From positions 1 to 33,947 of the IMG/VR virus record IMGVR_UViG_3300032296_003616: a DNA stretch of 33,947 bases, one strand, 5' to 3'. The notes below the pieces were generated by a model that worked only from the letters and a program-made list of their open reading frames with translations, made no database searches and had not been told where the DNA came from. Shown here piece by piece: positions 2,413 to 27,404 of this stretch. Numbering within the stretch: the first letter of the stretch is position 1; every line of letters begins with the position of its first letter. The position numbers and the translations under genes were made by a program. Source of the DNA: a virus.

Positions 2413-2676
2413 ATGGAAAGACCATACACAGATACAATAGAAGACCACAGTTGCGTTATAAGAGAGTTCGACGAGAACATAGACCCGATAGAACTCATGT
2501 GGCACAGGGACAACGAGCACAGAATAATAGAAGCTGTAGAACCCACAGATTGGCTCGTACAATTTGACAACGAATTACCGATTTCTCTAGATAAACCCAT
2601 ATTTATACCTAAACACGCTTGGCACCGAACCATAAAAGGCACAGGAAAGCTAAAGATAAAGATAACAAAAACATGA
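2413..2676 (+). CDS. Conserved WHRD phage protein, probable cupin-like beta fold
   Basis: An 87-residue protein. ELMWHRDNEHRII, the central DWLVQFDNELP and the terminal FIPKHAWHRTIKGTGKLKIKI form a pattern shared with short cyanophage and marine phage proteins. The alternation of short beta strands with two His-containing turns suggests a small cupin-like barrel, perhaps metal-binding through the two WHR sites, though this is an inference. Its stop codon overlaps the next start in an ATGA (2673-2676), which indicates translational coupling. A late-promoter-like motif lies inside its 3' end at 2598-2607. Confidence 0.8.
   Translation: MERPYTDTIEDHSCVIREFDENIDPIELMWHRDNEHRIIEAVEPTDWLVQFDNELPISLDKPIFIPKHAWHRTIKGTGKLKIKITKT
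2598..2607 (+). promoter_or_regulatory. CATATTTATA motif inside the preceding gene, possible promoter
   Basis: A perfect copy of the window's best motif, CATATTTATA, lies within the codons for KPIFIPK and 65 nt before the ATG at 2673. It may drive the AT-rich gene pair that follows. Because the bases also encode conserved residues, a chance match is possible. Confidence 0.35.
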
Positions 2677-3017
2677 AACAACAAATCAACGAAATCAAAA
2701 GAATGCAACAATTAGCTGGAATTTTAGCTGAAAAAGTATCTATTGGCGATAAGTATTCAGATGGTCAAGTGGAATTTAAAGACATCGAGCCAGGCCAATA
2801 CTTTTTGCAATTTGGATTTAATGGTCAATTATGGAGAAAATCTACTGAAGAACCTAATAAAGCTTTTTTCGTTAAAAATGTAGGTAAAAAAACAGCAGCA
2901 AAGGGTACTAATACTTACATAAAATTAAATAAAAGTACACTCTATACTGGAGAAAGATTCACAGATTCTCATACTGTATATCCTATTGAAAATCCTAAGA
3001 ATATACCAATAGATTAA
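2673..3017 (+). CDS. Putative internal head protein with capsid-targeting-like leader (MKQQINEIK type)
   Basis: A 114-residue protein. The start at ATG 2673 is preferred over the in-frame ATG 2619 because it overlaps the upstream stop as ATGA and because the same leader starts the next gene. Residues 1-20 form an amphipathic helix ending ILAE, a fit to the T4 gp21 cleavage rule (L/I/V)-x-E. Cleavage would release a 94-residue beta-rich domain containing PGQYFLQFGFNGQLWRK and KAFFVKN. The gene is visibly more AT-rich than those before it, which is compatible with later acquisition. The domain function is not recognised. Packaging in the head is an inference from the leader and position. Confidence 0.8.
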   Translation: MKQQINEIKRMQQLAGILAEKVSIGDKYSDGQVEFKDIEPGQYFLQFGFNGQLWRKSTEEPNKAFFVKNVGKKTAAKGTNTYIKLNKSTLYTGERFTDSHTVYPIENPKNIPID

Positions 3018-3048: not shown

Positions 3049-3273
3049 ATGAAACAGCAAATTAATGAAATTAAGAAAATGCAGCGAATAGCTGGTGTTA
3101 TTAATGAGACTCAAAACTATAATTTAATAGCAAAAGCAAAACAACTATTTCCTAGTTTACAGATTGATGCTAATTCTATATACCTTAATGACAAAATGCT
3201 ATTTTCATCTAATAATGATAAAGTAATAGAAGCATTTATTTTTGGTATGTTAGTTGGAAAAACAGCAAAATAA
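3049..3273 (+). CDS. Second MKQQINEIK-leader small protein, putative internal head protein
   Basis: A 74-residue protein. Its first 20 residues match 14 of 20 positions in the leader of the preceding gene, ending VINE before Thr. The two leaders differ by many synonymous codon changes, so protein-level constraint is implied. The predicted mature part (54 residues) begins YNLIAKAKQLFPSLQID and ends with a hydrophobic segment, AFIFGMLVGKTAK, which may be membrane-active or a buried helix. It is AT-rich like its neighbour. It lies 31 nt after the previous stop, behind a weak TTTTTATA stretch. The function is unknown; the leader is the informative feature. Confidence 0.75.
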   Translation: MKQQINEIKKMQRIAGVINETQNYNLIAKAKQLFPSLQIDANSIYLNDKMLFSSNNDKVIEAFIFGMLVGKTAK

Positions 3274-3351: not shown

Positions 3352-3558
3352 ATGACTTGGAGATCACAATTCTTAAGCAACGTAGCTACAACGTGTCTGA
3401 TGCTGGCGATGTTTTTCAACCCGCTTGGCTTCGATGCGCTATTCAAACTAGTGATGGATTGGACAGGTTCATTTTGGGCTACGGATATCATTTTTTATGG
3501 CGCTTCGCTTTTGTTTCTTGGCTTGTATTTATTATTCAGAAAACTATCTAAAAAATGA
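3352..3558 (+). CDS. Small two-helix membrane protein
   Basis: A 68-residue hydrophobic protein with two probable membrane segments, about residues 8-28 (ATTCLMLAMFFNPLGFDAL) and 46-63 (IIFYGASLLFLGLYLLF), followed by a positive RKLSKK end. The start at ATG 3352 gives a typical membrane-protein composition, while the overlapping frame from ATG 3318 does not. Its stop overlaps the next ATG as ATGA. The 78 nt upstream (3274-3351) contain no convincing gene, apart from a possible short N-terminal stretch in the other frame (MEADSKIQKKLNDLE). That leaves open an ancestral frameshift. A role in lysis or membrane takeover cannot be decided. Confidence 0.7.
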   Translation: MTWRSQFLSNVATTCLMLAMFFNPLGFDALFKLVMDWTGSFWATDIIFYGASLLFLGLYLLFRKLSKK

Positions 3559-3812
3559 TAAGCTTATTAGACATATTATTTGAGGCCGAGAGAACAAAAT
3601 CAGGGATAAAAGTGAAGAAGGCCTATCTAACAAAGGATAAAGCAGCAATGAAGCGTGAAATAGAAAGGACGTCTAAGTTGAGCGACAAAGATGCATCAGC
3701 TTATGGCAAATGGGAAGCTGATTATGCAGATAAAGATAAGAAGAAAAAATACAAAACAAAAAAATCGAAAGCTACCACAGCTTACGAAAAAAGATTCGGT
3801 AAAAGCAAATGA
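3555..3812 (+). CDS. Basic putative internal head protein with 10-residue leader
   Basis: An 85-residue, very Lys-rich protein. The first ten residues, MISLLDILFE, are followed by Ala. This is the same length and cleavage junction (I/L-x-E before Ala) as the T4 internal-protein leader MKTYQEFIAE. The predicted mature protein of 75 residues carries GKWEADYADKDKKKKYKTKK and an ending AYEKRFGKSK. Its net positive charge suits binding to packaged DNA. Both ends overlap neighbours by ATGA, so it is translationally coupled to the membrane protein before it and the DUF5824-type gene after it. Packaging is inferred, not seen. Confidence 0.8.
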   Translation: MISLLDILFEAERTKSGIKVKKAYLTKDKAAMKREIERTSKLSDKDASAYGKWEADYADKDKKKKYKTKKSKATTAYEKRFGKSK

Positions 3813-4081
3813 TAAGCCTACTACAAATACTAAACGAAGCTTTTGCTGCTAACGTAGAAAAAGCACTGGCAAATAAAGCCAAAGCAACCGGTGTATCTAA
3901 AACTATAATACGCCAAGTGTACCAAAAAGGTTTGGCGGCTTGGAAAAGGGGACACAGACCTGGCGCTAGTCAACACCAGTGGGCTTTAGGTCGCGTAAAT
4001 TCGTTTTTAACTGGAAAAGGCGGGGCAAGGAAAGCGGACAAAGGACTATGGAAAAAAGCAAGAAAAAGTAAAAAGAAATAA
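3809..4081 (+). CDS. DUF5824-type protein with capsid-targeting-like leader
   Basis: A 90-residue protein. MISLLQILNE followed by Ala repeats the leader of the previous gene (8 of 10 residues identical), again like the T4 internal-protein leader. The rest contains GVSKTIIRQVYQKGLAAWKRGHRPG followed by QHQWALGRVNSFLTG, a family widespread in T4-like and marine phages that I know as DUF5824. The C-terminus is basic (KARKSKKK). In other phages the domain usually occurs without a demonstrated function. Here the leader suggests that it travels inside the capsid. It starts within the stop of the preceding gene (ATGA). Confidence 0.85.
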   Translation: MISLLQILNEAFAANVEKALANKAKATGVSKTIIRQVYQKGLAAWKRGHRPGASQHQWALGRVNSFLTGKGGARKADKGLWKKARKSKKK

Positions 4082-8032: not shown

Positions 8033-9637
8033 ATGTCAGATAACAAACAGTACATAAGAGATAGGATAAAAGAGGAGTTCATAAAGTGTGCTCAAGATCC
8101 TGTGTATTTCATGAGGAAGTACTACATGATCCAACACCCCACTAGAGGAAGGCAACTGTTCGATCTTTACGACTTCCAAGAAAAGGTATTAAAGCTTTTC
8201 CAAACGAACGAATACGCGATAATAAACAAATCAAGGCAGCTTGGTATATCAACGCTAGTATCAGCTTACTCTCTTTGGTTGATGCTGTTCAACAAGGATA
8301 AGAACGTTCTCGTTGTAGCAACTACGCAAATGACCGCTAAGAACATGGTTACTAAGGTTCGCTTTGCTTACCAAAACTTACCCGCTTGGTTGAAGATAGG
8401 ACATTCAGAAGACAACAGATTGAGCCTTAGATTGGTTAACGGTTCACAGATAAAGGCCGTATCAGCAGCGGGAGACGCAACACGTTCAGAAGCTGTATCT
8501 TTATTGGTCATAGACGAAGCCGCTTTCATTGACAGGATAGAGGACATATTCACAGCGGCGCAACAGACGTTAGCAACCGGAGGTCGATGCATAGCGCTGT
8601 CTACTCCAAACGGCGTTGGTAACTGGTTTCACAAGACTTACACAAAAGCGCAAAAGAAAGAGAATCGCTTTTTACCCATATCTCTACCGTGGACAGTACA
8701 CCCCGAAAGAAACGAAGAGTGGAGGGAACAACAGACTAAAGAACTTGGAGTAAGAAACGCTGCGCAAGAGTGCGATTGCGATTTTGCTACATCAGGCGCT
8801 GGTGTTATAGAACCAGAGATATTGACATGGTACGAAATGAACATGATTAGTGAACCTTTGGAAAGGCGTGGCATGGACAAAGCGCTGTGGATATGGGAGT
8901 ATCCCGATCCAATGAGGTACTACGCAATAATAGCTGACGTTGCTCGTGGAGACAGTTCAGACTACTCTGCGTTTCACGTTATAGACACAGAGACGTTATC
9001 ACAAGTGGCAGAATACAAATCACAGATAGACACAAGGGAATACGCTAACGTTCTATTGGCAATCGCTAACGAATACAATCAAGCGTTGTTAGTTGTTGAA
9101 AACGCTAACATAGGCTGGGACGTTGTACAAACTGTTGTAGACAGCGGATATCCGAACGTTCACTACAGTCACAGGATCGACGCAGATAACTCTTTTGAGA
9201 AATACATAGATAGATTCGATAGAGGATCAGGGTTAGTCCCAGGATTCACCATGAGTCAAAAGACACGTCCTTTGGCTATAGAGAAGATGAGAGATTTCAT
9301 TGAAAACAAGATAGTGACCATAAGATCCATACGACTCCTGGAAGAGCTTCGAGTATTTGTTTGGAAGAACGGCAAACAGCAAGCCATGCAGGGATACAAC
9401 GACGATCTAGTAATGTCGTTTGCGATGGGAATGTACCTAAGAGAGACATCGTTAAGGTTCAAAAAAACAATGGATAGTTTAACTTCAGTGTCGATAAACA
9501 ACATAAACAAGACAAATAACAGTCATTATTTACCGTCTGCTAACCACAACTACAACGGATACAACAATCCATGGAGCATGCCAATATCAACGCCAGACGG
9601 ACAAACGCATAACCACGACCTTTCTTGGTTACTATAA
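8033..9637 (+). CDS. 17: Large terminase subunit, gp17-like
   Basis: A 534-residue packaging motor (T4 gp17 has 610). It hydrolyses ATP to drive DNA into the prohead through the portal and cuts the concatemer. The ATPase domain shows NKSRQLGISTL (66-75), LLVIDEAAFI (157-166, Walker B D161/E162) and the coupling motif ALSTPNG (188-194). The Walker A lacks the usual Lys before Ser/Thr; the K66/R68 at its start may substitute, as in other terminases with this variant. The RNase-H-like nuclease is marked by IIADVARGDSSDYSAF (D302), LLVVENANIGW (E356) and GYNDDLVMSF (D457/D458). It is followed at once by the portal gene. No small terminase gp16 is recognisable in the window. Confidence 0.96.
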   Translation: MSDNKQYIRDRIKEEFIKCAQDPVYFMRKYYMIQHPTRGRQLFDLYDFQEKVLKLFQTNEYAIINKSRQLGISTLVSAYSLWLMLFNKDKNVLVVATTQMTAKNMVTKVRFAYQNLPAWLKIGHSEDNRLSLRLVNGSQIKAVSAAGDATRSEAVSLLVIDEAAFIDRIEDIFTAAQQTLATGGRCIALSTPNGVGNWFHKTYTKAQKKENRFLPISLPWTVHPERNEEWREQQTKELGVRNAAQECDCDFATSGAGVIEPEILTWYEMNMISEPLERRGMDKALWIWEYPDPMRYYAIIADVARGDSSDYSAFHVIDTETLSQVAEYKSQIDTREYANVLLAIANEYNQALLVVENANIGWDVVQTVVDSGYPNVHYSHRIDADNSFEKYIDRFDRGSGLVPGFTMSQKTRPLAIEKMRDFIENKIVTIRSIRLLEELRVFVWKNGKQQAMQGYNDDLVMSFAMGMYLRETSLRFKKTMDSLTSVSINNINKTNNSHYLPSANHNYNGYNNPWSMPISTPDGQTHNHDLSWLL

Positions 9638-9648
9638 AATAACAAAAA

Positions 9649-11577
9649 ATGGAAGAACAAAAGAAACCGCAAGAGAATTTGTTTAGTACGCTTAGACGCT
9701 TATTTTCTACAGACGTGATAATAAGAAACGAAGGCGGAGGAATGCTAAAAGTAGTAGACACCGATAGGATACAAAACTCCGGTGTTGTACAGACTAACAG
9801 CTTAGTGGATAGGTTCCACAAGGTTTATACGACGTCTACTGCTTACGGTGTAAACATGAACTTGGCGCAGAACTACCAATCAGCCCGTGTACAGATATAC
9901 GCTGACTACGATGCGATGGACACAGACGCTATCGTTGCATCGGCTTTGGACATCATAGCTGATGAATGTACGCTTAAGAACGAACAGGGCGAAGTGCTAC
10001 AGATACGCTCTTCTGACGAAAACATACAGAAGCTTCTTTATAACCTTTACTATTCCATCTTAAACATCGAGTTTAGTCTTTGGGGATGGATAAGAAACAT
10101 GTGTAAGTACGGTGACTTCTATCTAAAGCTTGAAATGGCAGAGAAATACGGAGTTTACAACGTAATTCCATTCTCAGCCTACAACATAGTTAGACAAGAG
10201 GGATACAACCCAGAGAATCCTTCCGAGGTAAGATTCAAATACGATCCAAACGCAGCAATAGCGTCCACAACAGGTTATTCATCAGCATTCAATAACCAAG
10301 ACGTTGGGATATGGTTCGATAACTACGAAATGGCTCACTTCAGATTGACCGGAGACGTTAACTATCTTCCTTACGGTAGATCTTACCTAGAGCCAGCAAG
10401 AAAGCTATTCAAACAGTACACGCTCATAGAAGACGCGATGTTGATTCACAGGATAGTAAGAGCTCCAGAGCGCAGAGTGTTTTACGTTAACGTTGGTGCT
10501 ATACCTCCAGCAGAAGTGGAAAACTACATTCAAAGGATGATGAACAAGATGAAGAAGACTCCTTTGATGGACCCGCAAACCGGTAATTACAACCTAAAAT
10601 ACAACGTACAGAACATGCTTGAGGACTTCGTTATTCCTGTTAGGGGTAGCGATCAGACCACGAGGATAGATACTGCAAAAGGTCTGGACTACAACGGTAT
10701 CGAAGACGTTGCATACTTCAGAGAAAAACTGTTCGCAGCATTGAAGATACCAAAAGCGTTCATGGGATACGAAAAGGACTTAACTGGTAAGGCAACGCTA
10801 GCCGCAGAAGATATACGCTTTGCTAGAACAGTTGAGCGCATACAACGCATCATAGTGTCTGAGTTAACGAAGATAGGATTGATTCACCTATACGCTCACG
10901 GATACACAAACGAATCAGCCGCTAACTTCACCATATCACTAACAAATCCATCGATAATATATGATCAAGAAAGGGTGGCACTATTCAAAGAGAAGATAGA
11001 CCTAGCTAAACAGGCTATGGAGGGACAGTTGTTACCGAGGGACTACATATACGATAAAGTATTTCACTTCTCTGAGGATCAATACCTAGAGCTCGAAGAC
11101 ATGATACTAGAAGACCAAAAGAGAGCGTTTAGGTACAAACAGATAGCAGAAGAGGGCAACGATCCAGCAGAAACAGGACAAGCTTTCGGTACTCCACACC
11201 AATTGGCAAGCCTGTACGGTGGAAAGGGAGACATGTCCCTAGACGTACCAACAGGATACGATGAGAATAAACCAGAGAAAGAGTACGAATCACCAGGTAG
11301 ACCGCAGAAGTACAAATCCAAACGCGGAACAGACGCAAGTCCTTTTGGAAGAGATGGAATGGGAGTGTACGATCTGAAGTCAAACGCAGAAACTGGAGAA
11401 GACAAGCTTAAGCCAGAGTACAGAGGAGGACCGTTGGCGTTAGAAAGCACTATGGCAGAACTGTTAAAAAACAAACAAATGCTTGATAAGATAGCGAGTA
11501 AGTCTCAAAGAAAGGTGAAACTTTTTGAATCCACCGATCTTTTAGACGAAAGTAACATATTACAAGATCCCGAGTAA
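9649..11577 (+). CDS. 20: Portal vertex protein, gp20-like
   Basis: A 642-residue portal (T4 gp20 has 524). It forms the dodecameric ring at one capsid vertex, nucleates head assembly and serves as the terminase dock. The portal core is recognisable at about residues 320-375, with LEDFVIPVRGSDQTTRIDT, then GIEDVAYFREKLFAALKIPKAFMG, closely following T4-type portals. Residues 500-600 are a polar Gly/Pro-rich extension beyond the usual length, and the end (VKLFE-STDLLDESN) contains (L)-x-E sites that the prohead protease might trim. It starts 11 nt after the terminase stop behind an A-rich leader (AAAATAACAAAA), so the two are probably one transcript. Confidence 0.95.
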   Translation: MEEQKKPQENLFSTLRRLFSTDVIIRNEGGGMLKVVDTDRIQNSGVVQTNSLVDRFHKVYTTSTAYGVNMNLAQNYQSARVQIYADYDAMDTDAIVASALDIIADECTLKNEQGEVLQIRSSDENIQKLLYNLYYSILNIEFSLWGWIRNMCKYGDFYLKLEMAEKYGVYNVIPFSAYNIVRQEGYNPENPSEVRFKYDPNAAIASTTGYSSAFNNQDVGIWFDNYEMAHFRLTGDVNYLPYGRSYLEPARKLFKQYTLIEDAMLIHRIVRAPERRVFYVNVGAIPPAEVENYIQRMMNKMKKTPLMDPQTGNYNLKYNVQNMLEDFVIPVRGSDQTTRIDTAKGLDYNGIEDVAYFREKLFAALKIPKAFMGYEKDLTGKATLAAEDIRFARTVERIQRIIVSELTKIGLIHLYAHGYTNESAANFTISLTNPSIIYDQERVALFKEKIDLAKQAMEGQLLPRDYIYDKVFHFSEDQYLELEDMILEDQKRAFRYKQIAEEGNDPAETGQAFGTPHQLASLYGGKGDMSLDVPTGYDENKPEKEYESPGRPQKYKSKRGTDASPFGRDGMGVYDLKSNAETGEDKLKPEYRGGPLALESTMAELLKNKQMLDKIASKSQRKVKLFESTDLLDESNILQDPE

Positions 11578-13890: not shown

Positions 13891-15201
13891 ATGACAAACA
13901 TAACCAAACTTTATCAACAGCTACAAGAGGGTAAGACAACCCGCGAATATTTCGTTAGAGAAGCCCGCAGACAGTTTCCACAGTTCATTAGTCCTGTGAC
14001 TTCTTTTGACGACGCTGTAAATATATTGAAGAGCAAGAGACTGGTGTCCGAAAACTTAACTAAAGAAGTTAGCGGAGCTAGATTTGATACGTTGGGAGAA
14101 ACTCAAATGACAGATCAAGCGATAATTAAACGTGCAAAACAATTGGGAATAGAGGACAGCATTGTATTAGATGGAGAGGGCGGTGTAGAGAACGCTGAAG
14201 AAATGATAGCTTTAATAAACAACTCAGAGCCTATAAACGAAGCCCACAAGCTTGACGCAGAACAGATACTAGACAGAATGTCTCCATACGCTGTTAAGAA
14301 GGGAATAGAGGTAGAGCTAAAGAAAGAAAAGACTTACGACAATACAACTATCGATAAGGTAAAAGAGAGAGTGGCCAGGAAGCTCAAAAAGAACCCAAAC
14401 GCTTACGACGATCAGATCATAGCCAACGTAAAGAAGGTTGAAAAGCAGGACAAAGAGCTCGAAGCTACAGAGCTAAAAAAAGAGTTGGTCGACAAGAAGA
14501 ACGCGATGAGAAAGCCTAAGGGGTTTAAAGCTGATAAGGCTAACACAAAAGCTTCTAAGAGAGAAAACAGAAAGGGCAAACCAAAGGGCGTTAAAGTTAT
14601 GCCTGATAAGGGCGTAACAGGGACTGAGAAGGTGATAAAAGAAGACGTCATAGAGAATATCAAAAGCTGGCTTCAAGAGAACATAACGAGGGAATACCAC
14701 CCAGGTATGGAAGTACAAACACCAGACGGACACGGTATAGTAAAAGAGGTCAAAGGCGGTACGTTAACAGTTGAATTGGACGATAGTAATTTGAAAGACT
14801 ACCAATTCAATGTGATAAATAAGTTGATGGACAAAGAGCCCGAATCACAACCAGAAATTCAACCGTCTTCTGGTGATGAAATGACTAAAGCCGATAGAGA
14901 CGCTGCATGGGCAAAAATAGGAACGCCTATGGGTAGCGTTAAAGGCACAGATACTGGAATTCCCAAGTCGCTTTACTCAGCTATGACACCAGAGGAAAAA
15001 ATAGCCGCTATAATAGAAAAGTTGAACAAGATGGAAGAGGGCGAAAAGAAAGAGAAGATCAAAGAGATGATAAAGTCTAAGTTAAAAGAAGCGAAAGCTT
15101 TAGTAGTACCTAAAACAGCAACAGATCAACAAGTAACAAAAATAGTTTCTACTGATCCGACTATAAAACCTGGAACACCTTTAGAGATAATAAGAAAATA
15201 A
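13891..15201 (+). CDS. Probable prohead core protein with KOW-like domain
   Basis: A 436-residue protein directly upstream of the prohead protease, with the two sharing one base (TAATG). The N-terminus (KLYQQLQEGKTTREYFVREARRQFPQF, then PVTSFDDAVNILKSKRL) is a module I recognise from proteins of this position in many marine phages. It contains LQE-G and VRE-A junctions fitting gp21 specificity. Residues 120-245 are Lys/Glu-rich helices. Residues 270-320 (GMEVQTPDGHGIVKEVKGGTLTVELDD) form a KOW/SH3-like barrel. Further sites (PINE-A, LKE-A) lie along the chain. A scaffold or core function with proteolytic removal is inferred. Confidence 0.8.
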   Translation: MTNITKLYQQLQEGKTTREYFVREARRQFPQFISPVTSFDDAVNILKSKRLVSENLTKEVSGARFDTLGETQMTDQAIIKRAKQLGIEDSIVLDGEGGVENAEEMIALINNSEPINEAHKLDAEQILDRMSPYAVKKGIEVELKKEKTYDNTTIDKVKERVARKLKKNPNAYDDQIIANVKKVEKQDKELEATELKKELVDKKNAMRKPKGFKADKANTKASKRENRKGKPKGVKVMPDKGVTGTEKVIKEDVIENIKSWLQENITREYHPGMEVQTPDGHGIVKEVKGGTLTVELDDSNLKDYQFNVINKLMDKEPESQPEIQPSSGDEMTKADRDAAWAKIGTPMGSVKGTDTGIPKSLYSAMTPEEKIAAIIEKLNKMEEGEKKEKIKEMIKSKLKEAKALVVPKTATDQQVTKIVSTDPTIKPGTPLEIIRK

Positions 15202-15839
15202 TGTCCAAACAACTACTGATAGACCACTCGGTATTCCAACCGACGAACATACTAAGGGAATCAATCGATGCTAAGACCCGAAACATGGTCGTGATTGGTC
15301 TTGTGCAAGCTTGCGACAAACCAAATGCAAACAGACGCATTTACCCATACGATGTACTGTATCCTCAGGTTGAGAAATACGTAACTGGTCCAATAGCTGA
15401 GAATAGAGCGTTGGGAGAATTGGATCACCCCGAGTCTTCCATCATAAACTTAAAGAACGTATCACACAACATATTGGAACTGTGGTGGAAGGGAAAAGAT
15501 CTCTACGGAAAGGTTGAGATACTACCTACACCTTCAGGCAACATACTAAAGGAGCTCTTCCTAAATAACATCACAGTAGGCATATCTTCAAGAGCTTTAG
15601 GTTCCACTACTCAGATAGGCGAAGGCTTGGTTAGAGTGGAAGAGGACTTAGATATAATCTGTTGGGACTTCGTATCCCAACCAAGTACCTACGGAGCTTA
15701 CATGCGACCACAACAGTCGGTAGGCTTAGGCATAAACGAATCTGTTAACTTCCAACAACAAGAGACAAAGTACAGTAAGGCAAATCAGCTCATGAGAGAC
15801 CTTATTTGTGAAATGTCAGGAGTTTGTTGCGTTAACTAA
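15201..15839 (+). CDS. 21: Prohead core protease, gp21-like
   Basis: A 212-residue serine protease, the same size as T4 gp21. It matures the prohead by cutting core, shell and internal proteins after (L/I)-x-E. GELDHP (72-77) carries the catalytic His76, and TVGISSRALGS (125-135) carries the Ser, as in T4-type prohead proteases. GLVQACDKPNANRRIYPYDVL is the usual N-terminal strand and loop. The sequence NILRE-S at residues 17-21 is a plausible self-processing site. It is encoded immediately before scaffold and capsid, the classical 21-22-23 order. The Cys-rich C-terminus (MSGVCCVN) is unusual. Confidence 0.95.
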   Translation: MSKQLLIDHSVFQPTNILRESIDAKTRNMVVIGLVQACDKPNANRRIYPYDVLYPQVEKYVTGPIAENRALGELDHPESSIINLKNVSHNILELWWKGKDLYGKVEILPTPSGNILKELFLNNITVGISSRALGSTTQIGEGLVRVEEDLDIICWDFVSQPSTYGAYMRPQQSVGLGINESVNFQQQETKYSKANQLMRDLICEMSGVCCVN

Positions 15840-15958: not shown

Positions 15959-17170
15959 ATGGACAACAAAATTTACAAAGAAGCGATTCTTGACGCCAAA
16001 GCATTACGCGCCGGTGCAATCGCAAACGCAAAATCAATCATGCAAGAAGCACTTGAACCCGCTATTCAAGAAATGATGCGCCTTAAACTATCCGAAGAAC
16101 TCGAAGAAGAAATCGAAGAAGGATACGAAGAGGAAGGAATTGAAGAATACGGTGACGAGCATGCTGTAGCCACAAAAGACGCTTTAGAGAAAAAAGAAGA
16201 AGGCGAAATGTATGATGAAGAGGTTGAAGAAGTTACTGACGCTACTTTAGAAGAAATCCTTGCTGAGCTCGACGCTTTGGAAGAAGATCAACTAAACGAA
16301 GCCGAAGAAGACGAAGCTGAAGACGAAGAAGAGTCTGAAGAAGCTGAGGAAGACGAAGAAGGCGTAACAGATGACACTAAAGTAGTTCAACTAACTTTGG
16401 GAGATCTTAAAGCCGCTTTGATGCCTCAAGCCGCTGAAATGGGAGACGAAGCCGGTGAAGAATCAGAAGAAGCTCCTCTATCTTTGGACGAAATTTTAGC
16501 TGAAATGGAAGCTGAAAAGTACGAAGAAGCAATCGGGGAAGAAAGCAAAGAACCCGTTAAAGAGTTTATGCAATCTCAAGGCGCTTCTCAAGCTTTTGGA
16601 GAAATGCTACTTGGTTTGGCCAGAAAAGTTGGTATTCCTGTTGAAGGCATAGACGCAACAACTATCGGTACTGCCGTAGGAAGCGTAGCTGGAGCAGCTG
16701 GTTTAATAACTAGCGCGATAGTAGCTGGAAACTGGGATAAAATAAAAGCCATCATCTCCTCAGCACTTGGTAAAATTAAAGGTAAATCTGCAGTAGCGGA
16801 AGAAAAAGATCACGGTATTGAAGAAGAACTGAAAACAGCAAAAGAAACAATCGCCGAATTGAGAGAGAGCATCAACGAAATCAACCTCTTGAACGCTAAG
16901 CTTCTTTACATGAACAAGATCTTCAAAGCCAAATCTTTGACTGAGTCTGAAAAAGTAAAAGTAGTTAAAGCTTTCGACAGAAACGCAAGCATCAAAGAAG
17001 TTAAAAACACTTACGAGACGCTTAAAGAATCTATCCAAGCTAAAAAATCACAGGTTATTAAAGAATCTGTAGGTTTCGCATCAAAACCGATCGGAGTAGC
17101 CCCTAAAACTAACATCGTGGAAGCTGACGCTTTCGTTAACAGGTGGCAAAAGATCGCAGGTATCAAATAA
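15959..17170 (+). CDS. 22: Prohead scaffold/core protein, gp22-like, with a hydrophobic insert
   Basis: A 403-residue protein (T4 gp22 has 269). It would form the internal core on which the shell assembles and then be degraded by gp21. Residues 45-200 are extremely acidic. Residues 285-360 hold the gp22 signature, with TIAELRESINEINLLNAKLL, then YMNKIFKAKSLTESEKVKVVKAFD. The C-terminus, NIVE-ADAFVNRWQKIAGIK, contains a cleavage-like junction. Others are IMQE-A (30), LNE-A (114) and ILAE-M (182). Residues 225-275 form an unusual Gly/Ala-rich hydrophobic segment followed by the cationic WDKIKAIISSALGKIKGK, which is absent from T4 gp22. It is followed by gp23 after 35 nt of A-rich DNA. Confidence 0.9.
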   Translation: MDNKIYKEAILDAKALRAGAIANAKSIMQEALEPAIQEMMRLKLSEELEEEIEEGYEEEGIEEYGDEHAVATKDALEKKEEGEMYDEEVEEVTDATLEEILAELDALEEDQLNEAEEDEAEDEEESEEAEEDEEGVTDDTKVVQLTLGDLKAALMPQAAEMGDEAGEESEEAPLSLDEILAEMEAEKYEEAIGEESKEPVKEFMQSQGASQAFGEMLLGLARKVGIPVEGIDATTIGTAVGSVAGAAGLITSAIVAGNWDKIKAIISSALGKIKGKSAVAEEKDHGIEEELKTAKETIAELRESINEINLLNAKLLYMNKIFKAKSLTESEKVKVVKAFDRNASIKEVKNTYETLKESIQAKKSQVIKESVGFASKPIGVAPKTNIVEADAFVNRWQKIAGIK

Positions 17171-17205: not shown

Positions 17206-18840
17206 ATGGCAAATTTAGTAAGCTCGCTTTTAAGCGAATCAGCCCAAACTGCCTTCGAAAGCCAAACAGGTGTTGCTACCCGTCTTTCGAAAAAATGGGA
17301 AAAATCCGGACTTTTAGAAGGTCTTCAGGATTACGAAAAGAACAACATGGCAGTGTTGTTAGAAAACCAAGCAAAACAGCTCGTAGTTGAAACCACACAA
17401 ACTAACCAAGGCGGTAGCAACTGGAGCGCAGGAAACGGCGAACAGTGGGCTGGCGTAGCTCTTCCATTGGTTCGTAAGATCATGGGTCAGATCGCTGCGA
17501 AAGAGTTCGTTAGCGTACAGCCTATGAACCTTCCTGCTGGTCTAGTATTCTACCTTGATTTCCAATACGGAGACACTAAGACTCCTTTTGGATCTGGTAA
17601 CTCAATCTACGGTACTCCTTCTGCTAACTTCGGTAACTTGGCTGCTGGTGGTCTTTACGGCGCTGGTAAGTTCGGTTACTCTTTGAATCAGTTCAGTGCT
17701 TCTTCTACTGCTACTATCACTTCAGCTTCTTACGCTGACATCGACTTTAACGCAGACCTTTCTGCTTCTTTCGTTGCTGGTCAAGTTAAGAAGATCGCTG
17801 TAGCATCTAGTGATTTAACAACTGCTGATTTGGACGCTGTTCGTTCTTTCATACCAGTATCTGGATCTACTTTCACAACCGCTGCTACTCGCGTGTTGCA
17901 AAACTTCACAAAAGTTAACGGCGCAAACGTTGAGTTCTTCGTAACTGCTTCTACTGCAGAAGTTGCTGGTACAGCATTTACAGTGTTCTACAGCAAGCAA
18001 ACCGACTTCAACTCTCGCGGTGACTTCGAAGACAGAACTGGCTTACCTTCAGTTCCTAACGCTGCTTCTAACACATCTATCGTTATCCCTGAGATCAACG
18101 TACAGATGAAGAATCAGACCGTTTCTGCTAAAACTCGTAAGTTGAAAGCGCAATGGACTCCTGAATTTGCACAAGACCTTAACGCTTACCACTCTCTTGA
18201 CGCTGAAGCTGAATTGACTGGCATCCTTTCTGAGCACATCTCTCTTGAGATCGACCTCGAAGTTATGGATATGCTAATCAACAACGCTCCTACTGTTGAG
18301 TACTGGTCAGCTAAGGTTGGTAACCAAATCAACGCTACTAACAGCGATTTCACTTCTAACACTGCTGGCGTGTTCTACACTCAAATGACTTGGTTCCAAA
18401 CACTTGGTATCAAACTTCAGAAGGTGTCTAACATCATCCACCAACGTACTTTACGCGGTGGCGCTAACTTCATGGTAGTGTCTCCTACAGTTGCTACAAT
18501 CCTTGAGTCAATCCCTGGATTCGCTGCTGATACTGACGGAGCTGCTGACACAATGAAGTACGCTTTCGGTGTACAGAAGATCGGTGCTTTGAACAGCCGT
18601 TACAAAGTGTACAAGAACCCTTACATGACTGAGAACGTGATCCTTATGGGTTATCGCGGTAACCAGTTCCTTGAGTGTGGCGCTGTATACTCTCCGTACG
18701 TTCCATTGATCATGACTCCTCTCGTTTACGATCCTAATACTTTTACACCTCGCAAAGGTATCATGACTCGTTACGCGATGACAATGATCAGACCGGAATT
18801 TTATGGTCTAGTTGTAGTAGCAGATACAAATGTGATCTAA
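17206..18840 (+). CDS. 23: Major capsid protein, gp23-like
   Basis: A 544-residue shell subunit (T4 gp23 has 521). I start it at ATG 17206 after an A-rich leader; the in-frame ATG 17143 overlaps gp22 and would add 21 unlikely basic residues. KEFVSVQPMNLPAGLVFYLDFQYG and KTRKLKAQWTPEFAQDLNAYHSLDAEAELTGIL (split here for length: KTRKLKAQW, EFAQDLNAYH, DAEAELTGIL) are classic gp23 blocks. By alignment with T4 (cut at E65), gp21 cleavage is predicted after LVVE at residue 62. Residues about 150-270 form a Ser/Thr/Ala-rich insertion domain. Codon use differs from neighbours (ATC, GCT, ACT and CTT preferred over ATA), as expected for the most abundant protein. A strong terminator follows. Confidence 0.96.
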   Translation: MANLVSSLLSESAQTAFESQTGVATRLSKKWEKSGLLEGLQDYEKNNMAVLLENQAKQLVVETTQTNQGGSNWSAGNGEQWAGVALPLVRKIMGQIAAKEFVSVQPMNLPAGLVFYLDFQYGDTKTPFGSGNSIYGTPSANFGNLAAGGLYGAGKFGYSLNQFSASSTATITSASYADIDFNADLSASFVAGQVKKIAVASSDLTTADLDAVRSFIPVSGSTFTTAATRVLQNFTKVNGANVEFFVTASTAEVAGTAFTVFYSKQTDFNSRGDFEDRTGLPSVPNAASNTSIVIPEINVQMKNQTVSAKTRKLKAQWTPEFAQDLNAYHSLDAEAELTGILSEHISLEIDLEVMDMLINNAPTVEYWSAKVGNQINATNSDFTSNTAGVFYTQMTWFQTLGIKLQKVSNIIHQRTLRGGANFMVVSPTVATILESIPGFAADTDGAADTMKYAFGVQKIGALNSRYKVYKNPYMTENVILMGYRGNQFLECGAVYSPYVPLIMTPLVYDPNTFTPRKGIMTRYAMTMIRPEFYGLVVVADTNVI

Positions 18841-18947: not shown

Positions 18948-20297
18948 ATGGAAGTAAAATGTAAGATATGCGGATACGAAACAACTAGACGGGGTTTAAT
19001 GCCACATGTATCACAAAAACACGAAATAGGATTAGAAGACTACGTTGCAAAGTATGGAGAATATAGAAAGCGTCAATCTAATCTGCTCACACGGTCGAAA
19101 GACAGCGAAGTTATCTGTAAAGTGTGTAATGAGAAATGCGCCTCTGAACGACACCTGTCTTATCACCTAAAGATGAGTCACAATCTCAAAAGACGAGATT
19201 ACATAACCAAATACCTATTAAACGATAACATACCATTGTGTAAGTGCGGTTGTGGAGAACAAGTAAGCATACGATCGAGTGGAAAGCCGCCGTATTGGTC
19301 TGAGTACATCTCAGGGCACAACATATACGATGCTCACGTTGGAGCTAAAAGGTCTCACGAATCAAAGATGAAAATGAGACAAGCAGCTATAAATAGAATG
19401 AAAGAGAAGAACTCTGTATTTTTTTACAACGCTGTATCCAAACAAGAGTTAGATTTTGCGCAGTGGCTTAAAGAAGAGCTTAATCAAATTGTAGTATCAA
19501 GCGATAAGTCTGTTCTCTCTGGTCTGGAATTGGATATGTATCTACCAGAAAATAATTTAGCCATAGAGATAAATGGAATAAGATTTCACAGTGATATGTA
19601 CAAAGACAGGAATTATCACTTAAAGAAAACCAAAGAGTGTAACGAGAAAGGCATACGATTAATACACATTTGGAGCTGTGATCTATTAAACAAAGAAGAC
19701 ATAATAAAGTCGCAAGTTAGACACATATTGGGATTGAGTCAAAACAAAGTTTACGCTAGGGATTGCGAAATAAAAGAAGTATCGATAAATGATTGTCACG
19801 TGTTCCTTAGAAAAAACCACCTCCAAGGTTCAGTTGTATCTAAGCACCGTTACGGCCTGTATCACAACAATGAGCTAGTTCAGATAATAACCTTCGGTAA
19901 GATGAGATACGCTAAGAGGGAAAACGAACACACAAACGCTTTTGAGCTACTAAGACTGTGTTCCAAGCTAAACACAACAGTAGTGGGCGGGTCTAGTAAG
20001 CTTTTCAACCACTTTATAAAGCTACATAACCCTAATTATGTTTTATCATACGCAAATAGGGATTGGTCGATGGGATCTGTGTATAATTTACTCAATATGA
20101 AAGAAGCCGGTTATACCCCTCCAGGTTACTTCTACTCAAACGGTAAGGCTAAGTTGACCAGGTACCAGTGTCAGAAACACAAGTTGGTAGAAATGGGATT
20201 CGACAAAGAGATGAGCGAATACGACATAATGCAATCCCGTGGATATTACAAAGTTTGGGATTGTGGTAACATAAAATACGAATTAAAACTGAATTAA
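18948..20297 (+). CDS. Homing-endonuclease-like protein: zinc fingers, Vsr/EDxHD nuclease, Mom/GNAT-like C-terminus
   Basis: A 449-residue protein. Two C2H2-type fingers, C5/C8/H20/H25 and C57/C60/H73/H78, are each followed by a Y-(V/I)-x-K-Y motif. A third Cys knuckle is CKCGCGE (98-103). Residues 163-245 form a Vsr-like PD-(D/E)XK nuclease with E167, D196 and NLAIEINGIRFHSDMYKDR (E207, H214, D216), matching the EDxHD homing-endonuclease family. The C-terminal half (VFLRKNHLQG, LLRLCSKLNT, VVGGSSKLF, VLSYANRDWSMGSVY) resembles Mom-like acetyltransferase folds often fused to such nucleases. It is free-standing downstream of gp23, which is intact, so it is not an intron or intein. It is probably a selfish element that cleaves related phage genomes. 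Confidence 0.85.
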   Translation: MEVKCKICGYETTRRGLMPHVSQKHEIGLEDYVAKYGEYRKRQSNLLTRSKDSEVICKVCNEKCASERHLSYHLKMSHNLKRRDYITKYLLNDNIPLCKCGCGEQVSIRSSGKPPYWSEYISGHNIYDAHVGAKRSHESKMKMRQAAINRMKEKNSVFFYNAVSKQELDFAQWLKEELNQIVVSSDKSVLSGLELDMYLPENNLAIEINGIRFHSDMYKDRNYHLKKTKECNEKGIRLIHIWSCDLLNKEDIIKSQVRHILGLSQNKVYARDCEIKEVSINDCHVFLRKNHLQGSVVSKHRYGLYHNNELVQIITFGKMRYAKRENEHTNAFELLRLCSKLNTTVVGGSSKLFNHFIKLHNPNYVLSYANRDWSMGSVYNLLNMKEAGYTPPGYFYSNGKAKLTRYQCQKHKLVEMGFDKEMSEYDIMQSRGYYKVWDCGNIKYELKLN

Positions 20298-25790: not shown

Positions 25791-27404
25791 ATGTCACAAA
25801 CTTATAGAATAGGATCTCTCAATTTCACTGGTTCGCAAGCTATATTAAGCGCTTCGTTAGACGTATCAGGCTCAGGCAGGTTTACAGATGGATTAATAGT
25901 AACACGCTCGCTATATGTAACAGGATCAGAACCAACCATCTTTTCAGCAACAGGAGACGTACTCGAAGTATCAGGTAGCTTTGTTCTATACGGCAGTGCT
26001 AGTATATCGGATTCAGTAGTAATAGAAGGACCCGTTAATATAAAGAATAGTACAAGGGTAACAGGCTCACTAGACATATCAGGTTCAATCATTCCCGCTG
26101 TAGAAGGAGTAAGCGCAACATCTAGCTTTAGCTTAGGTAGTGCTACAAATGCTTGGAAAGATATTTGGGTATCAAACGGCACAATCAATTTCTTAGATGG
26201 TGCTGGTAACGTACAAGCTGCTCTAACAAGTAACGATCAAGGCCTTCAAATTGAAAACTACGCAGCTACAACAGGAAGTGTACCTGTATTTAATATAAGT
26301 GGCAGCGGTAATATAACAAACGGATTGACTGTAACAGGTTCATTAGCACAAGGAAGTAGTGTTGTAGCTACTGGATCTTTTTCACACGCTGAAGGCAACC
26401 AAACAATAGCATCAGGCTCATATTCACATGCTGAAGGAGATAGTACACAAGCAATCGGAGCTGCTTCACATGCAGAAGGCGGTCAAACACAAGCTATAGG
26501 TAACTATTCACACGCTGAAGGCAGAGAAACACAGGCTGTAGAAGCTTATTCACATGCAGAAGGATACCAAACAGTAGCATCAGGCTCATATTCTCACGCC
26601 GAAGGTGAAGGTACACAAGCAATAGGAGAAGGTTCCCATGCTGAAGGCACATATACTCAAGCAACAGGATACGTTTCACATGCAGAAGGATACCAAACAA
26701 TAGCATCAGGTTCATATTCTCACGCAGAAGGTAGCAGTACACAAGCAATAGGAGCAAATTCACACGCAGAAGGTAGCAGTACACAAGCAATAGGAGATGG
26801 TTCACACGCTGAAGGAAATATTACACAAGCCGTAGGAGACTACTCTCATGCTGAAGGAGATAACACTCGAGCAGTAGGAAACTATTCACATGCTGAAGGT
26901 CAAGAAGCAATAGCATCAGGATCATACTCACATGCTGAAGGATATGATACACGAGCAATAGGAAACTACTCACACGCAGAAGGATCAAGTACACAGGCAA
27001 TAGGGGATTATTCGCACGCCGAAGGCTACCAAACAATAGCATCAGGCTCATGGTCACACGCTGAAGGATATAACACACAAGCAATATTACAAGGATCACA
27101 CGCAGAAGGCTACTTCACAATAGCATCTGGCTCCCACCAACACGTATCAGGTCGGTACAATGAACACGGCAATGAGTTATCACTATTCGTAGTAGGTATA
27201 GGCGATAATAACGAAACCAGAAAAGACGGCTTCACAGTAGACGTAGATGAAAACGGAAGTGGATCTGTAATGATACCAAACAACGTAAATGCACCATCAG
27301 TAGCAAAAACAGGTTCAATGTATGTTGATCCTGCAAACAACAAACTATGGATATACACTGGGAATGGTGGAGTAAGTGGATGGGTAACTTCTAGTTTGGG
27401 ATAA
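25791..27404 (+). CDS. YadA-head-like (SHAEG repeat) tail adhesin
   Basis: A 537-residue protein. Residues 1-190 are GSxxVTGS fibre strands. Residues 195-446 consist of 18 tandem 14-residue repeats of the form GxYSHAEGxxTxAx, the Hep_Hag/YadA-head pattern that folds as a trimeric left-handed beta roll. The repeats are followed by a degenerate copy (SGSHQHVSG), a neck-like block, GNELSLFVVGIGDNNETRKDGF, and a C-terminal KTGSMYVDPANNKLWIYTG end. In bacteria this fold makes surface adhesins; here it would form a host-binding fibre head. Repeat number may vary by recombination. Confidence 0.9.
   Translation: MSQTYRIGSLNFTGSQAILSASLDVSGSGRFTDGLIVTRSLYVTGSEPTIFSATGDVLEVSGSFVLYGSASISDSVVIEGPVNIKNSTRVTGSLDISGSIIPAVEGVSATSSFSLGSATNAWKDIWVSNGTINFLDGAGNVQAALTSNDQGLQIENYAATTGSVPVFNISGSGNITNGLTVTGSLAQGSSVVATGSFSHAEGNQTIASGSYSHAEGDSTQAIGAASHAEGGQTQAIGNYSHAEGRETQAVEAYSHAEGYQTVASGSYSHAEGEGTQAIGEGSHAEGTYTQATGYVSHAEGYQTIASGSYSHAEGSSTQAIGANSHAEGSSTQAIGDGSHAEGNITQAVGDYSHAEGDNTRAVGNYSHAEGQEAIASGSYSHAEGYDTRAIGNYSHAEGSSTQAIGDYSHAEGYQTIASGSWSHAEGYNTQAILQGSHAEGYFTIASGSHQHVSGRYNEHGNELSLFVVGIGDNNETRKDGFTVDVDENGSGSVMIPNNVNAPSVAKTGSMYVDPANNKLWIYTGNGGVSGWVTSSLG
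26373..27128 (+). repeat. 18 tandem 42-bp repeats encoding SHAEG units
   Basis: Eighteen in-frame 42-bp units with SHAEG at a fixed position, five or six of them ending IAS or VAS and most others ending QAI or QAV. Codons differ among copies (CAC/CAT, GCT/GCA/GCC), so the array has diverged at synonymous sites while the protein pattern is kept. Confidence 0.95.

Follow-up and report, generated by a model that had tools for sequence, protein, structure and literature searches.

Twin ten-residue leaders on a split DUF5824 protein as putative head-targeting propeptides in a T4-type phage group

Why would two adjacent, overlapping genes of a T4-type phage begin with almost the same ten residues? 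The question is raised by a 33.9-kb virus record (the window, that is, the whole stretch of 33,947 nucleotides that was analysed), which carries a T4-type head block with small genes upstream of the terminase gene. Two of its ORFs, at 3555-3812 (85 aa) and 3809-4081 (90 aa), are joined by an ATGA and encode starts that are identical at 8 of 10 positions, with Ala as the next residue in both. A sequence-only reading had pointed to this pair of coupled genes, and both ORFs were found as described.

3555..3584, + strand: leader 1, MISLLDILFE, of the type-A class MIKLxDILxE; predicted cut after Glu10, before Ala11
3809..3838, + strand: leader 2, MISLLQILNE; predicted cut after Glu10, before Ala11
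3809..3812, + strand: ATGA stop/start overlap of both genes; same overlap in related loci L001, L002 and L006
4619..4660, + strand: leader-like start MNLDALILRQMLLE of a 697-aa gene upstream of terminase

Both leaders carry L4, I7, L8 and E10 and end in an L/I-x-E site (ILFE/A and ILNE/A, the slash marking the candidate cut). When residues 2-10 of all N-termini in the window were compared, this pair, with 7 identities, was the second most similar of 741; the pair formed by genes 2673 and 3049 came first with 8, and the third-ranked pair had 5. Different codons are used at 5 of the 9 identical residues (Ala included), so the likeness is kept at the peptide level and is not that of a fresh DNA copy. 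The pattern phi..phi[LIV]xE was then searched within the first 20 residues, with internal Met pseudo-starts as controls. It was present in 6 of 39 window genes versus 4 of 172 pseudo-starts (2.3%; binomial P ~3e-4). The same scan applied to T4 as a positive control recovered MKTYQEFIAE/A twice, gp24 (LRE/S) and Alt (ITE), and thus picks up known cases. In contig G009, a 670-aa protein encoded near the DUF5824 gene begins MNKDLHILKAILLE/A. A programmed -1 frameshift fusing the two window genes was considered and rejected: the second frame contains a TAA at 3800, directly upstream of the overlap, and inspection by eye revealed no slippery heptamer, so that coupled re-initiation is likelier. Promoter and terminator scans gave counts no better than shuffles, and a megablast of the window against phage records returned no match.

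In T4, residues 4 and 7 of the ten-residue signal are mainly involved in targeting and residues 8 and 10 in processing, with gp21 cutting after L/I-x-E (PMC9026906); the lysines of T4 internal proteins contact DNA phosphates (PMC3012670). Our preferred reading, to which we assign a probability of roughly 0.78, is that the twin starts are N-terminal head-targeting propeptides of the T4 kind, placed on the separated halves of a DUF5824 protein. Each leader would dock and take its protein to the core of the prohead; the gp21-type protease (S77) that the phage itself encodes would then cut after Glu10, and the small, very basic product would stay in the head with the packaged DNA. Each half of DUF5824 is now a polypeptide of its own, which would explain why each has its own tag. 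As a further step, the tags might dock where the C-terminus of the scaffold docks.

The head block of the window comprises the following genes and features:

8033..9637, + strand: terminase large subunit gp17 (profile searches)
9649..11577, + strand: portal gp20 (PF07230, E 4.6e-72)
15201..15839, + strand: prohead protease of gp21 type, Peptidase_S77 (PF03420, E 4.3e-24; phrog_207, E 6.6e-46)
15959..17170, + strand: scaffold by position, between gp21 and gp23; acidic, with many L/I-x-E sites
17129..17167, + strand: scaffold C-terminal motif AFVNRWQKIAGIK, common to type-B leaders
17206..18840, + strand: major capsid protein gp23 (PF07068, E 1e-78)

Alignment indicates two candidate propeptide cuts in gp23, SLLSE/S (after residue 11) and LVVE/T (after residue 62). 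Pfam scaffold profiles gave no hit with the 15959..17170 product, and its assignment is therefore based on position and composition. Several other genes of the window were recognized in passing. A homing/HNH endonuclease gene (18948-20297; phrog_3339, E 2.9e-103) lies directly 3' of gp23, at the place occupied by segD in T4. A long fibre-like protein (25791-27404) contains repeated SHAEG units resembling head repeats of trimeric adhesins. In the 799-1437 product, a charged tail follows an N-terminal DUF3008 domain; gene 1441-1812 encodes a DUF5856/starvation-inducible-regulator-like protein.

What lies behind the twin leaders could be determined by comparison with related loci.

3585..3812, + strand: module 1 of DUF5824; basic, K+R 26 of 75, pI of predicted mature product 10.0
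3839..4081, + strand: module 2, the DUF5824 core (GHRPG..QHQWA..RVNSF; PF19141); all-helical model, pI of predicted mature product 11.8

The product of 3809-4081 matches PF19141 (E 1.4e-15; 58 bits for a cut-off of 25) at profile positions 55-118 of 127 only, in agreement with the earlier assignment of the second gene to DUF5824, and AlphaFold2 predicts an all-helical module 2 (mean pLDDT 87.6). The 3555-3812 product alone gave no hit with this profile. In L008, L019 and L041, a single 168-aa protein consists of a leader, a basic module 1, an INE[GS] linker and the DUF5824 core. The 3555 product shows 64-67% identity with the N-terminal half of the fused L019 and L041 proteins and 33% identity over 49 residues with L064, which matches PF19141 at positions 3-123 of 127, that is, over both modules; the 3809 product is 73-81% identical to the core of the three fused relatives. 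The sequence-only reading had taken the two payloads for different proteins. This view has to be abandoned, its 'Lys-rich protein' being the N-terminal half of the DUF5824 family, encoded with the core by one gene in relatives. Judged from these matches, the window encodes a split DUF5824, and each of the two parts has its own leader.

Other architectures were found in the same group. L029 and others have an X-M1-M2 arrangement, with an extra N-terminal domain behind the leader MIKLKDILLE/M and the INE/G linker kept. Split genes with a leader on the second part occur in L001-L007, L022 and others, and with a leader on each start in L001, L002 and L014. In phage C48C1, module 1 is carried by a cytidyltransferase and module 2 is encoded separately behind MITFKKYLEE. 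The leader thus follows the start of the polypeptide and not a particular domain. A tree of the DUF5824 core requires at least 2 label changes between fused and split forms. The I-N-E[GS] linker of the fused forms is a candidate site for the same S77 protease. Neither sequence nor fold searches of the PDB with the DUF5824 core yielded anything significant, and module 1 was poorly predicted in an AlphaFold2 model of the fused protein. Literature searches returned no paper naming DUF5824, and only unrelated word hits for the leader strings. Elsewhere in the window, the 1813-2403 product has a C-terminal phrog_7595 domain (AARHKC...YWSCRLPRYA), which, as judged by eye, is found at the end of the DUF5824-containing Melnitz protein as well; the two domains may therefore travel together.

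If the leaders are substrates of the prohead protease, they should accompany it. A gene for S77 was detected in 13 of the 25 records searched, several of the remaining ones being fragments. A leader is present on the DUF5824 proteins of 11 of the 13 S77-positive records, which are mostly close relatives and hence do not represent 13 independent tests, and in all 11 DUF5824 is located at or near the protein start. The two exceptions, HTVC008M and Melnitz, possess S77 with DUF5824 inside a cytidyltransferase-like protein lacking a convincing leader. In contrast, DUF5824 is leaderless in 6/6 sampled S77-negative genomes (HTVC202P, HTVC111P, HTVC026P, MED4-184, DSL-LC01 and Salinibacter 15_1), all from distant phages and one of them partial. 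It had been predicted from the window that a leader with the same junction would recur in gp21 phages and be absent without the protease. Recurrence and absence agree with this prediction (11/13 versus 0/6 sampled), with few independent lineages behind the contrast. The opposite outcome, homologues in gp21 phages that mostly lack a leader, did not occur, since the leader is present with S77 and absent from the sampled genomes without it. The Glu-Ala junction did not prove general: Glu is kept in most leaders, and the following residue in relatives is Ala, Met, Tyr, Asn, Ser, Ile or Val. The leaders, the split and fused architectures, the presence of the protease and the recurrence of leaders on unrelated payloads can be read directly from the genomes; taken together, they argue strongly, by comparison, for head packaging of DUF5824. 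Against this model, P1' in relatives (Tyr, Met, Asn, Ile) is looser than the Ala of T4 internal proteins.

How such leaders might dock is suggested by a second class, type B, whose members in the window are also located upstream of the terminase gene:

2673..2732, + strand: type-B leader MKQQINEIKRMQQLAGILAE, gene 2673-3017
3049..3108, + strand: type-B leader MKQQINEIKKMQRIAGVINE, gene 3049-3273

Both genes begin with MKQQINEIK[RK]MQ[QR][LI]AG[IV][LI]xE, and the class as a whole can be written EIKRMQxLAGIxxE. Scanning viral contigs with EIKRMQxLAG revealed at least 78 distinct proteins with at least 62 payload families. Among the matches listed, the motif lies no more than 12 residues from a Met in 75 of 78 proteins and is directly followed by [LIVM]xE in 72 of 78. 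S77 is present in all five type-B-carrying contigs of at least 87 kb. Among 939 distinct proteins from the first set of loci, [QK]x[LIV]AG[ILVM] was found 6 times in N-terminal position, 7 times in C-terminal position and 8 times elsewhere, all 7 C-terminal cases being the scaffold-position gene. The scaffold ends with R[WM][QK]xLA[GN]I in 22/22 records where it was found, some of these near-identical; the 22 include twelve records added to the first set and Flavobacterium phage immuto (ARWQMLAGINKF, SRMQKLANIIK, SRWQKLAGIIK). In G001, no scaffold was seen beside the S77 gene within the stretch that was read. The genes lying between those for protease and scaffold begin with EAKRWQQLAGIITE/A and similar sequences. 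One of them, in L298 (contig G025, 3042-3902), starts as a type-A leader, MRIKLIDLLKE/A, and ends in the scaffold motif, RLQKLAGIK.

A type-B leader repeats the scaffold C-terminal motif and adds an L/I-x-E site. The simplest reading of this identity, for type-B tags, is that they dock by imitating the end of the scaffold. When leaders of types A and B are aligned on Glu, both have L/I(-6), I/L(-3), L/I(-2) and E(0), of which the scaffold keeps the first two only. By extrapolation from this spacing alone, we infer that the twin (type-A) leaders might also dock at the scaffold C-terminus site. That the leaders of the whole group combine a portable scaffold C-terminal docking motif with a gp21-type site, so that cargo would pose as a scaffold end and be released by the protease, is a proposal to which we give even odds. 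In immuto, the leader LSEQFRRMQKLAGIITE matches the scaffold end VSEQVSRWQKLAGIIK, and leaders fit their own scaffold best (10/13 versus 5-8). Across the group, leaders matched their own scaffold no better overall than those of other phages (P 0.48). Mimicry as a general T4 rule was also considered; it was unsupported, being undetectable by BLOSUM scoring and shuffles in T4, C48C1 and HTVC008M, among them a cyanophage-like phage.

The scaffold-like motif bears on a different interpretation, in which the leaders are amphipathic helices by which proteins are anchored at the inner membrane of the host or on another partner, the prohead protease being unrelated and the Glu a helix cap. The starts are hydrophobic and, in the AlphaFold2 model, form one uninterrupted helix with the first helix of the payload, and T4 prohead assembly itself begins on the membrane (PMC9026906). 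We nevertheless consider this interpretation unlikely, given the fixed Glu with L/I/V/M two residues before in the type-B leaders listed, the scaffold protein ending in the same motif, and the leaderless DUF5824 of the sampled S77-less genomes.

The type-A class is likewise found on many payloads. In the relatives G017 (183 kb) and G018 (173 kb), starts of the MIKLxDILxE type rank among the N-termini that recur most often in the proteome. A scan of viral contigs revealed at least 140 distinct proteins with at least about 60-66 unrelated payload families; for at least 117 of these proteins, an in-frame stop lies no more than 13 codons before the start. S77 is present in 7 of the 8 contigs of at least 100 kb found by type-A patterns. 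Such a diversity of payloads indicates that the tag belongs to the polypeptide start, like the T4 capsid-targeting sequence. Pfam domains of the payloads include ATP-grasp, M23 peptidase, lysozyme, Nudix, RNase T, zeta-toxin-like kinase and AAA. By eye, payload starts (HFT.../HET...GL) in L413 (at 1187), L320 (at 1822) and L426 (at 1981) recall ADP-ribosyltransferases, of which T4 Alt is one.

There are several ordinary enzymes among these payloads (Nudix, ATP-grasp, RNase T, lysozyme); they could also act in the cytoplasm, which speaks against head packaging. The M23 peptidase, lysozymes, zeta-toxin-like kinase, ATP-grasp and Nudix enzymes would also suit a general signal for proteins delivered with DNA or by the tail, acting in the new host, with head packaging incidental. 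The candidate cleavage site and the scaffold-like motif point instead to the prohead, and we regard such a signal as very unlikely as a separate explanation; T4 Alt and IPI combine head packaging and ejection (PMC9026906, PMC3012670), so this explanation is partly the same model as ours. Finally, the adjacent position of the two genes and their existence as one gene in relatives could mean that the twin leaders are simply left over from the recent splitting or tandem duplication of a gene, with no function of their own, but this is most unlikely in view of the codon differences, the presence of the leader class on at least about 60 unrelated payload families in other phages too, and the different, T4-like leader of C48C1 module 2.

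A head role of DUF5824 receives independent, positional support from other phages. In Roseobacter phage CRP-822, the DUF5824 core forms part of a capsid-protease polyprotein; in MED4-184 it is flanked by head morphogenesis and capsid genes, and in DSL-LC01 it follows the portal gene at a distance of a few genes. For DUF5824, the findings suggest a role that can be tested, as a basic protein inside the head. A phage group with a cultured Flavobacterium relative displays two readable classes of tags on more than 100 payload families, one class matching the scaffold tail, and these classes offer a simple sequence-based prediction of head-packaged, possibly injected proteins. The recruitment of core proteins was still described as mysterious in a 2023 review on T4 (PMC9958956); scaffold-tail mimicry, if true, would answer how they enter a T4-type prohead.

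The cultured relative, Flavobacterium phage vB_FspM_immuto (Immutovirus), has S77, gp20, a gp23 that is 54% identical and type-A leaders. Its scaffold ends in SRWQKLAGIIK and two of its genes begin with MKKQILSEQF[KR]RMQ[FK]LAGIITE/S; a motif search for the DUF5824 core found none in this phage. A third leader class, F[DN]L[KR][KS]FL[VT]E/N, was noticed in its genome (NC_055915.1, at 1803, 103806, 117631 and 118632), with two of the genes just before terminase. A literature search for N-terminal sequencing or virion mass spectrometry of these phages, including virion proteomics of immuto, retrieved nothing. Full-length members of PF19141 hold both modules, whereas the window encodes them as separate genes, each with a leader. 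In phage P1, a short N-terminal signal within the first 30 residues of DarB sends cargo to the capsid, as proposed here, but, unlike in the window phage, no separate scaffold has been identified (PMC9024508). The closest parallel is the T4 leader MKTYQEFIAE/A. The resemblance claimed by the sequence-only reading holds for the length of ten residues, the hydrophobic positions 4 and 7, and positions 8 (L/I) and 10 (Glu) of the L/I-x-E site; Ala follows the cut in the twin leaders, and in relatives this junction is not general. The small basic payloads and the presence of gp21 in the same genome are also as in the T4 system. The phages described here differ from T4 in their DUF5824 payload, in the splitting of its gene in two, in the looser P1' of relatives and in the far greater number of tagged payloads.
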